This document shows positions 2,746 through 25,950 of a stretch of DNA of 25,950 nt, piece by piece; position 1 is the stretch's first letter; the number at the start of each line of letters is the position of its first letter. This stretch comes from Candidatus Tectomicrobia bacterium. Lineage in GTDB: Bacteria > UBA8248. The position numbers and the translations under genes are program-made. The stretch spans positions 1 to 25,950 of the forward strand of contig JACPUR010000022.1 in assembly GCA_016192135.1 (NCBI GenBank), in the 5' to 3' direction. Below the pieces are notes generated by a model that saw only the letters and a list, made by a program, of their open reading frames with translations, searched no databases and had not been told where the DNA came from.

Positions 2746-2790
2746 CCAAAAGCCCTCAAAAAACAAATATCCACCGGAAGGCATCCCGCC

Positions 2791-2820
2791 TTGACCCGCT
2801 TCCTCGGTTGGGGGTATGAG
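2791..2820 (+). promoter_or_regulatory. Candidate sigma70-type promoter for the FAH-enolase-receptor genes
   Basis: TTGACC (2791-2796), an 18-base spacer, then TATGAG (2815-2820), about 95 bases before the FAH-family start at 2916. With the leftward candidate it makes 2641-2915 a divergent promoter region. No clear operator was recognised. Confidence 0.35.
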
Positions 2821-2915
2821 GATGCGTCATCTCATTCCCTATGCCAGGAGGAACCGCCGGCCCGGCTCACGCGACCCGCCGGCCTCCTGTCTTCACCGCC
2901 CGAGGAAACCGGAAT

Positions 2916-3812
2916 ATGAAATTGGTCACCATGGAGATCACCGAAGGCGGAAAAGGGCGGGAGAGCATCGGGGCGGTCCTGCCGGGGGAGCGGGTGCTGG
3001 ACCTGGCCGCCGCCTCCGCCGCCATCCCCCCCGACATGGTGATGTTCCTCGAGACGGGCCGCCCGGGCCTGGACGCGGCCCGCAAGCTCGCCGAGGAGGC
3101 CGGGAAGGGCCGCCACGCCTCCAGCGTCCGGCCCCTCGCGGGGGTGAAGCTCAAGGCGCCGGTGCCGCGCCCCCGGAAGTTCATCCACGCCGGGCGCAAC
3201 TTCCACGCCCACCTCGCCGAGTCGGGCAGCAAGATGCCCAAGCAGATCCCCCTCGCGGCCCGCTTTTCCTCCACCATCATCGGGCCGGACGAGCCCATCC
3301 TCTACCCCAAGATCACGACCCAGTGGGACTCGGAGGCCGAGATCGTCATGGTCATCGGCCAGCGGTGCAAGTACGTCCCGCGCGAGAAGGCCTTCGACGT
3401 CATCATGGGCTACACCCTCTACAACGACGTCACCGCCCGCGACATCCAGAACGACGAGGCGCGGGGCGGGCTCTTCCTCTGCAAGACCCTCGACACCTCG
3501 AACCCCCTCGGCCCCTGGATCGTGACCTCGGACGAGATCCCCGACCCTCAGGGCATGGAGATCATCGGGAAGGTCAACGGCTTCGAGCTCCAGCGCCAGA
3601 GCCTGCGGACCATGATCTTCGACATCCCCCACATCATCTCCCACCTCTCCAACATGACGCTGGAGCCGGGCGACCTCGTCTCGACCGGCACCCCCGAGGG
3701 CTGCGCCATCTTCCGGCCCGACGGCGAGCCCCATCTTCTCCGGCCCGGGAGCGTGGCCGAGGTCTCCTCGCCCCAGATCGGGGTGCTGCGCAACCCCGTC
3801 GTGGCGGAGTGA
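2916..3812 (+). CDS. Fumarylacetoacetate hydrolase (FAH) family protein
   Basis: 298-residue cytoplasmic enzyme of the FAH superfamily, whose metal-dependent members hydrolyse, hydrate, isomerise or decarboxylate 2-oxo acids. ATG 2916 was chosen because GAGGAA (2902-2907) lies eight bases upstream and the family fold begins soon after; an upstream in-frame ATG at 2841 would add 25 unlikely residues. Seen motifs: RKFIHAGRNFHAH, then SEAEIVMVIG with E140 and E142, and LYNDVTARD with D171. These are the usual three carboxylate metal ligands. STGTPEG near the C-terminus is also typical. The next gene starts four bases after the stop, so the two are co-transcribed. The pairing with an enolase-superfamily enzyme suggests action on a 2-oxo-3-deoxy acid, but this is inference; isomerase or lyase activity is equally possible. 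Confidence 0.9.
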   Translation: MKLVTMEITEGGKGRESIGAVLPGERVLDLAAASAAIPPDMVMFLETGRPGLDAARKLAEEAGKGRHASSVRPLAGVKLKAPVPRPRKFIHAGRNFHAHLAESGSKMPKQIPLAARFSSTIIGPDEPILYPKITTQWDSEAEIVMVIGQRCKYVPREKAFDVIMGYTLYNDVTARDIQNDEARGGLFLCKTLDTSNPLGPWIVTSDEIPDPQGMEIIGKVNGFELQRQSLRTMIFDIPHIISHLSNMTLEPGDLVSTGTPEGCAIFRPDGEPHLLRPGSVAEVSSPQIGVLRNPVVAE

Positions 3813-3816
3813 GCGC

Positions 3817-4950
3817 ATGAAGATCACGCGCGTCGAGGCCTTCGTCCTCTCCGCCCCCCAGCCCGAGCGGGAGTTCTGGGTGAGCCTCCGGCCCGTGCTC
3901 TCGGTGAACGAGCTGGTCGTGAAGGTCCACACCGACGAGGGCGTCTCCGGCGTGGGCCTGGGCACGGCGGTCGCCTCGGTGAAGGAGGCGGCGCAGGTGT
4001 TCCGCAGGGGCTTTGGCGACCTCATCCTCGGCGAGGACCCCCTCCGCCCCGAGCGGGTCCAGGAGAAGCTCCTGAACGTCACCTTCTCGCGGGCCATGCA
4101 CGAGAAGGGCTGGCCGCGCCCCCACCTGGTGACGGCCATCGCCGCCATCGACAACGCCCTGTGGGACATCCTGGGCAAGGCGGCGGGGCTGCCCGTCTAC
4201 AAGCTCCTCGGCGGCTTCTCCAGCCGCGCCCGCACCTACGCCGGCGGCGGCTACTACCGGACGGGCAAGGACGTGAAGGAGCTCGTCCGGGAGATGGAGA
4301 CCTACCTCGGCATGGGCCACCGCGGCTTCAAGATGAAGATCGGGGCCATGCCCCTCAAGGAGGACCTCGAGCGCGTCCGCGCCGTGCGGGAGGCCATCGG
4401 CCCGGACTGCCTCCTGGCCGTGGACGTGAACGGCGCCTGGAGCTACGCCCAGGCCCGGGAGAACGTGCCGCGCCTGGCCGAGTTCGGCCTCGCCTGGATC
4501 GAGGAGCCCGTCTGCTGGCGGGAGGCGAAGCACACCCTTCCCCTCCTGCGGCGGGGCTGCCCCGTCCCCATCGCCGACGGCCACGGCGAGATGGCGATCT
4601 ACGAGTGCCTCCGCCTGATCGGGGACGGCTCGGTGGACTACATCCAGTTCGACGCCACCAAGTTCGAGGGGGTCACCGGGAGCCGCAAGATCATGGCGGC
4701 GGCCGAGCAGGCCCACCTGAAGTTCGTGCCCCACCACGATCCGCAGGTGCACGCGCACTGCGTGGCCGCGAGCCCGGCGGGCTTCATCTGCGAGAGCCAC
4801 GCCGACCCGGAACGCGACCCGGTCTGGTTCGAGCTCTTCGAGGGGGCGCCCGAGCTCCGGGAGGGCTGGCTCGAGCTGCCCGACCGCCCGGGCTTCGGGG
4901 TGGAACTGAACGGCAAGGCCATGGCAAAATGGGGGGAACGGGTCTGCTGA
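3817..4950 (+). CDS. Mandelate racemase/muconate lactonizing enzyme family protein (enolase superfamily)
   Basis: 377-residue enzyme of the enolase superfamily, which abstracts the proton alpha to a carboxylate using a divalent metal. Visible features: an N-terminal capping domain (about 1-125), then the barrel with a KxK pair (K172, K174), metal ligands D203 (in AVDVNGAW) and E229 or E230 (in WIEEPV), and a third acidic position at E258 (in ADGHGE). A His-rich PHHDPQVHAH follows and may supply the second catalytic base. Length is normal. GGAG (3806-3809), inside the end of the FAH gene, is the ribosome site. Most bacterial members beside transporters are acid-sugar dehydratases, so the likely role is dehydration of a sugar acid or similar hydroxy acid taken up by the TRAP system. 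The exact substrate cannot be read from the sequence. Confidence 0.9.
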   Translation: MKITRVEAFVLSAPQPEREFWVSLRPVLSVNELVVKVHTDEGVSGVGLGTAVASVKEAAQVFRRGFGDLILGEDPLRPERVQEKLLNVTFSRAMHEKGWPRPHLVTAIAAIDNALWDILGKAAGLPVYKLLGGFSSRARTYAGGGYYRTGKDVKELVREMETYLGMGHRGFKMKIGAMPLKEDLERVRAVREAIGPDCLLAVDVNGAWSYAQARENVPRLAEFGLAWIEEPVCWREAKHTLPLLRRGCPVPIADGHGEMAIYECLRLIGDGSVDYIQFDATKFEGVTGSRKIMAAAEQAHLKFVPHHDPQVHAHCVAASPAGFICESHADPERDPVWFELFEGAPELREGWLELPDRPGFGVELNGKAMAKWGERVC

Positions 4951-7944: not shown

Positions 7945-8028
7945 ATGGCCGCAAAGAAAGCCGCGAAGAAGAAGACCGCGAAGAAGAAGGCTTCGAAGAA
8001 GAAGGCTTCGAAGAAGAAGAAAAGATAG
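7945..8028 (+). CDS. 27-residue lysine/alanine-rich, histone H1-tail-like peptide
   Basis: Tiny gene reading MAAKKAAKKKTAKKK, then two ASKKK units and a basic end (KR), stop TAG. About 60% of residues are lysine. The start ATG 7945 follows GGGAG (7934-7938) by six bases. A 15-base unit, GCTTCGAAGAAGAAG, occurs twice in tandem (7990-8019), with a variant just before. Such KAAKKK tails occur in bacterial H1-like DNA-binding proteins, so nucleoid or RNA binding is plausible but not shown. It is flanked by its own promoter candidate and a strong terminator 135 bases downstream, which supports a real transcript. The same frame is open upstream to 7855, so a longer form from TTG 7879 cannot be excluded. 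It could also be a short non-coding RNA that happens to be open. Confidence 0.6.
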   Translation: MAAKKAAKKKTAKKKASKKKASKKKKR

Positions 8029-24122: not shown

Positions 24123-24210
24123 TGCGTGTGGCATCCTGCCGCCACGGGAAGCGTCCAAGTCCGTCCGCCCCTCTCCGCCTGTGGGGAGGGGCTTGTTCCG
24201 GGAGGAGACG

Positions 24211-25215
24211 GTGGCCAAAGGAATCGCTTGGATCACGACGACGTGGATTCAGGGGCTCGCGGACCCCATGAGCTACCTCCGGCCCCTGGAGGCGGCGGGC
24301 CTGGAGGTCCGCATCGACTCTACGGGACGGGAGCCGACCGAGGAGGAGATGCTCCGGAAGCTCCCCGGCGTGGTCGTCTCCATGCCCAGCAACGATCCCT
24401 TCAACGAGCGCACCCTGGCCGCCGCCGACAGCCTCCGCCTCGTGGCCCGCACGGGGGTGGGCGTGAACAGCATCGACCTCGAAGCCTGCACCCGGCACGG
24501 GGTGGTGGTCACCTACGCCCCCGGCCAGAACGCCGTCTCCGTCTCGGAGCACACCTTCGGCCTCATCCTCTCCGTCGCGCGGCGCATCTGCCTCCTCAAC
24601 GAAAGGGTCCGCCGGGGCGAATGGGGCGCGCTCCGGGTGCCTATCCCCCCCCTGACGGGCAAGACGCTCGGCATCATCGGCCTGGGCAACGTGGGCAAGA
24701 ACGTCGCCCGGCGCGCGGTGGCCTTCGGGATGGAGGTCCTGGCCCACGACCTGGTGCGCGACGAGCGCTTCGCCGCCGAAACCGGGGTTTACTACAAGCC
24801 GCTGGACGAGGTGATCCGGCGCGCGGACTACTTGACCTGCCACGTGCCCCTGACGAACCTCACGCGGGGCATGATCGGCCGCGGCGTGCTCCGGCGCATG
24901 AAACCCACCGCCTTCCTCATCAACACCGCCCGGGGACCCGTCGTGGACCTCGACGCCCTGGCCGAGGAGCTCCCGCGCGGCACCATCCGGGGCGCGGCGC
25001 TGGACGTCTTCCCTCAGGAGCCCCCCAAGCAGCCCCACCCCGTCTTCGGGCTCGACAACGTCGTCGTCACCCCGCATATGGCGGGGCTGGGAGAGGACGC
25101 CTGCGAGAACTCGCTGCGCCACGCCGTCCACTGCACGCTGGAGTTCCTGGCCGGCCGGCGGCCTCCCGACGTTGTGAACCCCGAGGCGCTCGATCAGCCG
25201 GGGGTGAGGCGATAA
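24211..25215 (+). CDS. D-isomer-specific 2-hydroxyacid dehydrogenase family protein (phosphoglycerate dehydrogenase-like)
   Basis: 334 residues, GTG start with GGAGG (24201-24205) five bases upstream. NAD-dependent oxidoreductase for D-2-hydroxy acids or their 2-oxo forms. Visible: RTGVGVNSIDL (80-90), SVSEHTFGLIL, the dinucleotide loop GLGNVG (157-162), and the catalytic triad R241 (NTARGPVVD), E270 (DVFPQEP) and H289 (TPHMAG). It lacks the C-terminal ACT domain of full SerA, so it is more likely a glyoxylate/hydroxypyruvate-type or sugar-acid dehydrogenase than the regulated serine enzyme. It stands alone, divergent from the SDR gene. Confidence 0.93.
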   Translation: MAKGIAWITTTWIQGLADPMSYLRPLEAAGLEVRIDSTGREPTEEEMLRKLPGVVVSMPSNDPFNERTLAAADSLRLVARTGVGVNSIDLEACTRHGVVVTYAPGQNAVSVSEHTFGLILSVARRICLLNERVRRGEWGALRVPIPPLTGKTLGIIGLGNVGKNVARRAVAFGMEVLAHDLVRDERFAAETGVYYKPLDEVIRRADYLTCHVPLTNLTRGMIGRGVLRRMKPTAFLINTARGPVVDLDALAEELPRGTIRGAALDVFPQEPPKQPHPVFGLDNVVVTPHMAGLGEDACENSLRHAVHCTLEFLAGRRPPDVVNPEALDQPGVRR

Positions 25216-25431
25216 TTCAAGACATCCATGTCCGATTCTTTAAAGCCAACCAATGTGAACGCTTGCGGCCGATCCTTCATTTGGCGGGTTCTCGTGCACG
25301 CGCATCGCCCACTTTCCAGATTGTAATATCCATCACACATTTTCGATCTCTTTTTGAAAACTCCCTCACATTTTCAGCATTATTGCCATATATTTTGTTC
25401 AATACCGCTTCTCTCGCATAAGGAGACTGTC
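25216..25431. other. AT-rich region before the cysteine-repeat gene
   Basis: No gene seen in 216 bases. The right half (25315-25415) is far richer in A/T than the rest of the window. It contains the promoter candidate listed separately. No intrinsic terminator for the preceding gene was found. Confidence 0.5.
25354..25383 (+). promoter_or_regulatory. Candidate promoter of the cysteine-repeat gene
   Basis: TTGAAA (25354-25359), 18-base spacer, CATTAT (25378-25383), giving a leader of about 45 bases before GTG 25432. Confidence 0.5.
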
Positions 25432-25950
25432 GTGAAACGATTGCTCGTAGCCCTCGGGGTTGCGGGCGGCCTCTTCTGGATCTCGCAGACCGCCGCCTAC
25501 GCGCAAGCCCCTCACCCCGCCTGTAGCCTGCTTCCCCCGCAAGAGCAAGGTCTTTGCAACCAGACCATCAACAATCGCCGGGCCGCCTGCGACCGCCAGC
25601 CCAACCCCCAGGCCCGCCAGGCCTGCCTCAACGCCTTCGGCCAGCTCAACACCCGGCTGAACTCCTGCCCGCAGGTCCAGCCCGCCGACCGGCGCGACGA
25701 CTGCGTGCGCGCTTCTTTGGGATTGCCCCAGCCTCGTCCGCCCGTTGCGGGACACCCCGCCTGCAACCTCCTGCCTCCGCAGGAGCGGGGCCTCTGCGTC
25801 CAGCGCATCAACGAACGCCGGGCCGCCTGCGACCGCCAGCCCAACCCCCAGGCCCGCCAGGCCTGCCTCAACGCCTTCGGCCAGCTCAACACCCGGCTGA
25901 ACTCCTGCCCGCAGGTCCAGCCCGCCGACCGGCGCGACGACTGCGTGCGC
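25432..25950 (+). CDS. Secreted protein of 80-residue six-cysteine repeats, C-terminus cut by window edge
   Basis: Open to the right edge (173 codons seen). GTG 25432 follows AGGAG (25421-25425) by six bases. Signal peptide: KRLLVALGVAGGLFWISQTA then AYA, with cleavage probably after A24. Two tandem repeats of 80 residues follow. The first has cysteines at 31, 42, 53, 65, 79 and 91 (spacing 10, 10, 11, 13, 11 residues); the second starts at C111. Each unit reads HPAC-x-LLPPQE-x-GLC, then RRAACDRQPNPQARQACLN, FGQLNTRLNSCPQVQP and DRRDDCVR. The even cysteine count and export suggest disulfide-bonded helical units in the periplasm or outside the cell, or, less likely, a metal or heme role (no CxxCH seen). 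I do not recognise the family. More repeats may follow beyond the window. Confidence 0.8.
   Translation, partial: MKRLLVALGVAGGLFWISQTAAYAQAPHPACSLLPPQEQGLCNQTINNRRAACDRQPNPQARQACLNAFGQLNTRLNSCPQVQPADRRDDCVRASLGLPQPRPPVAGHPACNLLPPQERGLCVQRINERRAACDRQPNPQARQACLNAFGQLNTRLNSCPQVQPADRRDDCVR
25576..25710 (+). repeat. Exact tandem repeat, copy 1 (135 bp)
   Basis: Identical base for base to 25816-25950 at a period of 240 bases (80 codons). The flanking parts of the same unit differ, for example at 25573 and 25575, so the identical block is bounded on the left. Confidence 0.95.
25816..25950 (+). repeat. Exact tandem repeat, copy 2 (135 bp, runs to the edge)
   Basis: Second copy of the block at 25576-25710. 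Its right limit is not visible because the window ends, so identity may extend further. Confidence 0.95.

Follow-up and report, generated by a model that had tools for sequence, protein, structure and literature searches.

GLG1-type cysteine-rich repeats (PF00839), which also occur in bacteria, are exported in tandem and carry their cysteines in pairs on helical segments. In repeat region 2 of the H. pylori protein CagY (CagY_M, PF07337), helical cysteine-bearing modules are duplicated and deleted with function kept (PMC2581425), and a further report describes in-frame recombination in CagY that changes secretion function (PMC8534286). The Hcp proteins, with their Sel1-like repeats, consist of disulfide-bridged alpha/alpha repeats of 36 residues (PMC2581425, PMC4792463), in which the cysteines of a pair lie seven residues apart (PMC4792463). 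Here we describe a repeat gene at the right end of a contig from an uncultured groundwater bacterium for which CagY repeat region 2, together with Hcp, offers the closest precedent in logic, by analogy; we file it under neither, because the profiles do not match and the spacings differ. With moderate confidence, we favour the reading that its product is an exported protein in which a signal peptide precedes seven or more six-cysteine units and a two-cysteine cap, and whose stapled beads form a recombining array with a spacer, adhesive or structural role at the envelope or surface.

As with CagY repeat region 2, this would be an exported array of helical modules with regular cysteines and in-frame module gain and loss. 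However, CagY modules measure 38–39 residues and are rich in Lys and Glu, whereas the units here measure 74–80 residues and are rich in Pro, Arg and Gln, and CagY is a VirB10-like component of type IV secretion, whereas the repeat protein shows no VirB10 domain. The CagY_M profile matched nothing in the two halves of the protein (E up to 10) or in three genomes (E 1), and a link to type IV secretion was not found: neither half contains a VirB10 domain, and the neighbouring genes encode a dehydrogenase and M16 peptidases. The likeness to Hcp would lie in secretion and in disulfide-bridged helical repeats, which are predicted in the present case, but the seven-residue cysteine separation of Hcp does not occur in the units, where the gaps are 10, 10, 11, 10–13 and 10–11 residues and paired cysteines stand 10–11 residues apart around a proline turn. 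Neither the Sel1 profile nor the 36–44-residue SLR consensus matched the two halves (E up to 10) or nine units (E 1), and, as regards an alpha/alpha solenoid fold, the models give helical units at moderate confidence, do not define how the units are placed relative to one another and have no significant structural match. GLG1-type repeats are similarly exported in tandem with paired helical cysteines but space them differently, and the PF00839 profile (Cys_rich_FGFR) had no match in the repeat protein at E up to 10. A diverged member of one of these disulfide-bridged helical repeat families would share the logic of exported helical repeats with regular cysteines, and repeat number also varies in CagY (PMC2581425, PMC4792463); given the absent profile matches, the other cysteine spacing and the lack of a significant fold match, we consider such membership very unlikely.

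The window, that is, the whole stretch of DNA analysed (25,950 bp), is one entire contig (G000:C22:1-25950) of a 3.92-Mb genome in 41 contigs. A frame with a GTG start codon begins close to the right end and remains open to the last base (Table 1). The sequence-only reading had described a signal peptide followed by 80-residue units with six cysteines each, and the frame, with its 240-bp period, bears this out. The predicted signal peptide (VKRLLVALGVAGGLFWISQTAAYAQA) is of Sec type, with Lys-Arg, a hydrophobic core and AxA sites, and no lipobox cysteine was seen in it on inspection of the sequence. Within the units shown in Table 1 the cysteine gaps are 10, 10, 11, 13 and 11 residues, and 19 residues separate the last cysteine of one unit from the first of the next. 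The 135 bases said to be identical between units, third codon positions included, are indeed so; the statement that the first ~20 residues of each unit differ stands in that differences exist, but is overstated, with 6 of the first 24 residues differing. The contig itself ends at base 25950, so the duplicate is cut off on its right by the assembly and its identity runs for 135 bp or more. The upstream region contains two overlapping sigma-70-like matches (25354-25383 and 25365-25394; consensus matches only) and CTCGATCTCTTTTTGAAAA, which is largely common to the congeneric genome G001. Elsewhere in the window (about 7945-8028, + strand), a lysine-rich tiny frame resembling a histone H1 tail, MAAKKAAKKKTAKKKASKKKASKKKKR, is encoded by a 15-bp tandem repeat (7964-8019).

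Table 1. Features at the right end of the window (G000, genome of the window; G001, metagenome-assembled genome (MAG) of the same genus)
Feature	Position	Strand	Remarks
D-2-hydroxyacid dehydrogenase gene, left neighbour	24211..25215	+	Pfam 2-Hacid_dh / 2-Hacid_dh_C; synteny
AT-rich 5' region of repeat gene	25216..25431	+	44% GC vs 69% in the window
Shine-Dalgarno AAGGAG	25420..25425	+	present in G001 too
Exported six-cysteine repeat gene, 5' part	25432..25950	+	173 codons, runs off contig; continues at G000:C18:1-1157
Signal peptide (predicted)	25432..25509	+	26 codons, up to AQA, with an AYA site two residues before it; same N-terminus in G001
Unit 1	25510..25749	+	80 codons, six cysteines
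135-bp identical block, copy one	25576..25710	+	sequence comparison
Unit 2	25750..25950	+	six cysteines; cut by contig end
135-bp identical block, copy two	25816..25950	+	stops at contig end

The frame does not close beyond the edge but continues on a second contig, C18, which starts in frame with a partial unit, followed by four complete units, a two-cysteine cap and a stop codon (L006:1155-1157). Two M16 peptidase genes come after the stop (L006:1364-2773 and 2777-4123). No overlap between the two contigs was found, the best comparison giving 91% over 68 bp, and part of the array is therefore missing; joined on the strength of synteny, the gene would have at least seven units. A 32-bp match on a further contig, C24 (E 9e-4), was taken as chance. 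In the same-genus Ca. Tectomicrobia MAG G001, the dehydrogenase and the beginning of the repeat gene stand at the end of contig C443, and the final part of the repeat gene, with the M16 genes behind it, opens C103, so that gene order is identical to that in G000 and contigs are broken inside the repeats in both. The contig break is a tandem repeat that the assembly did not resolve, near-identical tandem units breaking assemblies in this way in both MAGs. An assembler loop, with no such tandem array in the protein, would account for an identity that stops exactly at the contig end and for two contigs that do not overlap; yet C18 carries five more units that are not identical, two distinct units occur in the congeneric MAG in the same gene order, and a complete four-unit paralog is contained within one contig. 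An artefact is thus extremely unlikely, since repeats are present on another contig and in another MAG as well; the number of units is at least seven.

The dehydrogenase gene directly precedes the M16 gene in six other genomes of the phylum (G002, of the same genus, G003, G007, G008, G011 and G013), at a spacing of roughly 10 to 170 bp; in G008 the dehydrogenase portion was read at the contig start. The repeat gene stands between the two only in G000 and G001. This distribution favours a lineage-specific insertion, gained in the lineage rather than lost repeatedly, because the repeat gene is absent at the site in other genera. Between G000 and G001 the flanking genes have 79% protein identity, the cap only 53%. 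Both neighbours predate the insertion, and we therefore rejected the gene neighbourhood as a guide to function. As a separate observation, G001 and G002 both conserve GTGTGGCATTTTGCC ahead of the M16 gene (L060:3355-3372 and L016:445-462), and the similar GTGTGGCATCCTGCC lies upstream of the dehydrogenase gene in the window, near 24127; a promoter or operator common to the genus is one possible reading.

The array carries marks of recent duplication or gene conversion. All 44 synonymous choices in the 135-bp block agree, for which the chance, given the same protein and the codon usage of the other genes of the window, is about 10^-12.4; the synonymous identity is far beyond codon bias. A second, independent perfect duplication, of 80 bp, is present in the gene's other half. 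In G000 the units fall into two blocks, with 81–94% nucleotide identity within u1–u4, 79–89% within u5–u7 and 67–78% between the blocks. The first two units of G000 are 91% identical and, in G001, the first known unit is 90% identical to the last, whereas the first units of the two species are 77% identical, and CARQATPQAQQAC comprises residues common to the G001 units and absent from every G000 unit. Moreover, the last G001 unit, beside the cap, is nearer to the first block of G000 (81–88%) than to u7 (73%), its counterpart by position, so that place along the array is not preserved. This is the pattern of arrays that turn over by local duplication and homogenisation, via unequal crossing-over or gene conversion, which fit the data equally. 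The recent duplication or gene conversion proposed in the sequence-only reading thus gains support from the likeness of units within species, the second perfect duplication and the variable unit number.

The units are built from an elementary hairpin motif, C-x(3-5)-P..[RKQ]-x2-C, found in 46 of 47 proline-containing Cys-Cys segments; R, K or Q stands three residues before the second cysteine in 46 of the 47, and R in 36. Six-cysteine units contain three such motifs, four-cysteine units two and the cap one, and the number of cysteines is even in all complete mature members (6n+2 or 4n+2). The seven complete C-termini (L006, L016, L018, two in L033, L034 and L035) all have the common cap and a terminal P-[STGA]-N. 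This tail is constant though the stretch before it varies in length, and may be a sorting or anchoring signal.

Members of this family were found by profile search in one genus only so far (G000, G001 and G002), all from uncultured groundwater bacteria. One is a complete 173-residue protein with a single six-cysteine unit and cap (G001:C404). Paralogs with four-cysteine units have two and four units in G000:C10, one unit and, across C189 and C60 (exact 76-bp overlap), five units in G002, and about six units in G001:C342, where the frame shifts early. That shift lies inside the first four-cysteine unit (L058:2430-2480) and is probably a mis-assembly between repeat copies, or else a real frameshift. 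Unit number thus differs among members, from one to at least seven. The four-cysteine-unit genes follow ABC transporter genes; in L033 (G000:C10:2000-8500) and L034 (G002:C60) they lie between these and an opposite-strand phage portal gene (PHROG 10963, E 3e-40 in G002); this arrangement is at the same place in two species and is perhaps a remnant of an old prophage or gene-transfer agent. The profile search gave no family match at E 0.001 in the other 15 genomes of the phylum and none in 368 genomes elsewhere in the domain; of the 386 genomes covered, 383 lie outside the genus, and in many of them scoring was confined to the best 11 first-look candidates, so that weak relatives could escape; no match was found in viral contigs, phages or plasmids, nor in the genome contig collection beyond the G001 MAG. 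The failure to recognise the repeat family from sequence was justified: scans of the repeat proteins against Pfam, NCBIfam and PHROGs returned weak, unrelated matches below curated cut-offs, so that no described domain matches the units. The best match in a PDB sequence search, HDAC4 (E 0.2), was taken as chance. By its sequences, the family is a real, unrecorded and so far genus-restricted group of exported repeat proteins.

Cysteine-rich beads, tandem arrays and homogenisation are typical of multi-headed inhibitors, such as plant multi-domain proteinase inhibitors. The repeat protein shows these traits and its gene adjoins those of M16 peptidases, which would suit a secreted protein with several heads that inhibits or binds, for instance, proteases, in which each bead is a binding head and array length sets valency. 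However, no inhibitor family in Pfam or NCBIfam matched, the M16 pair is ancestral here and relatives have it without the repeat gene, so that the neighbourhood is no evidence, and the four-cysteine paralogs lie elsewhere, beside ABC transporter genes. We regard an inhibitor as unlikely.

AlphaFold predicted one unit, from a nine-row alignment, as all-helical with turns at the prolines (pLDDT 76, pTM 0.45). Four units with the cap showed the same three main helices per unit and low-confidence Pro-rich linkers (pTM 0.26), that is, beads without a defined mutual arrangement; these models rest on 6–9 alignment rows. Foldseek returned nothing below E 1 for the unit model, and the best VIA-align match, a designed protein (Z 5.9 over 58 residues), has little meaning for helical bundles. 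In the predicted secondary structure the two cysteines of each motif flank an inter-helix turn, and the model suggests a pairing of 1-2, 3-4 and 5-6 because the motif cysteines sit on either side of that turn. DsbA-family homologs are present in all 3 genomes of the genus. From the even cysteine counts, the export signal and these homologs, we infer that the mature protein would have disulfides inside each motif. Many regularly spaced cysteines on predicted helices, and one low-Z structural match to the copper storage protein 5nqn (Z 2.3), could instead speak for a periplasmic metal-binding or storage protein whose reduced helix cysteines bind copper or another thiophilic metal, with capacity set by the units. 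Yet that Z is at noise level, the cysteines are about 10–13 residues apart without CxxC or CxxxC pairs, conserved His or Met is absent, and the even cysteine counts and DsbA homologs favour disulfides, which leaves metal storage quite unlikely.

We return to a role as spacer, adhesin or structural protein at the envelope or surface, which seems to fit best because it accommodates export, predicted stapled helices, Pro-rich linkers, variable length and no known catalytic or binding domain. After Sec export, DsbA-type oxidases would join the cysteines on either side of each proline turn, and every C-x10/11-C motif would thereby staple a helical hairpin; three such hairpins, making up one unit, would form a small rigid bead, and the beads would be strung on Pro-rich linkers. 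As the units have near-identical DNA, unequal recombination or gene conversion could add units, remove them and make them alike, and frame and fold would be kept because each unit spans a whole number of codons and corresponds to exactly one bead. At the envelope or on the cell surface, the product would serve as a stable spacer, an adhesive or a structural protein, with its reach set by unit number; as to exported location, surface, periplasm and release fit alike.

More tentatively, and well short of probable in our estimation, this may be a genus-restricted orphan family that arose by two-level amplification of a single 12–13-residue disulfide hairpin: two, three or one hairpins would have given the four-cysteine unit, the six-cysteine unit or the cap, and the units would then have been amplified, with array length tuned by ongoing in-frame recombination and the cap and P-x-N serving as a localisation or anchoring signal. 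The repeat proteins make up a protein family that had not been recorded, marked by a cysteine signature of its own and with an origin that can be traced. Because such repeat genes break MAG assemblies, they are probably under-reported. Relatives in the phylum keep an empty site between two conserved genes, and the arrival and expansion of the repeat protein can therefore be traced in uncultured bacteria.
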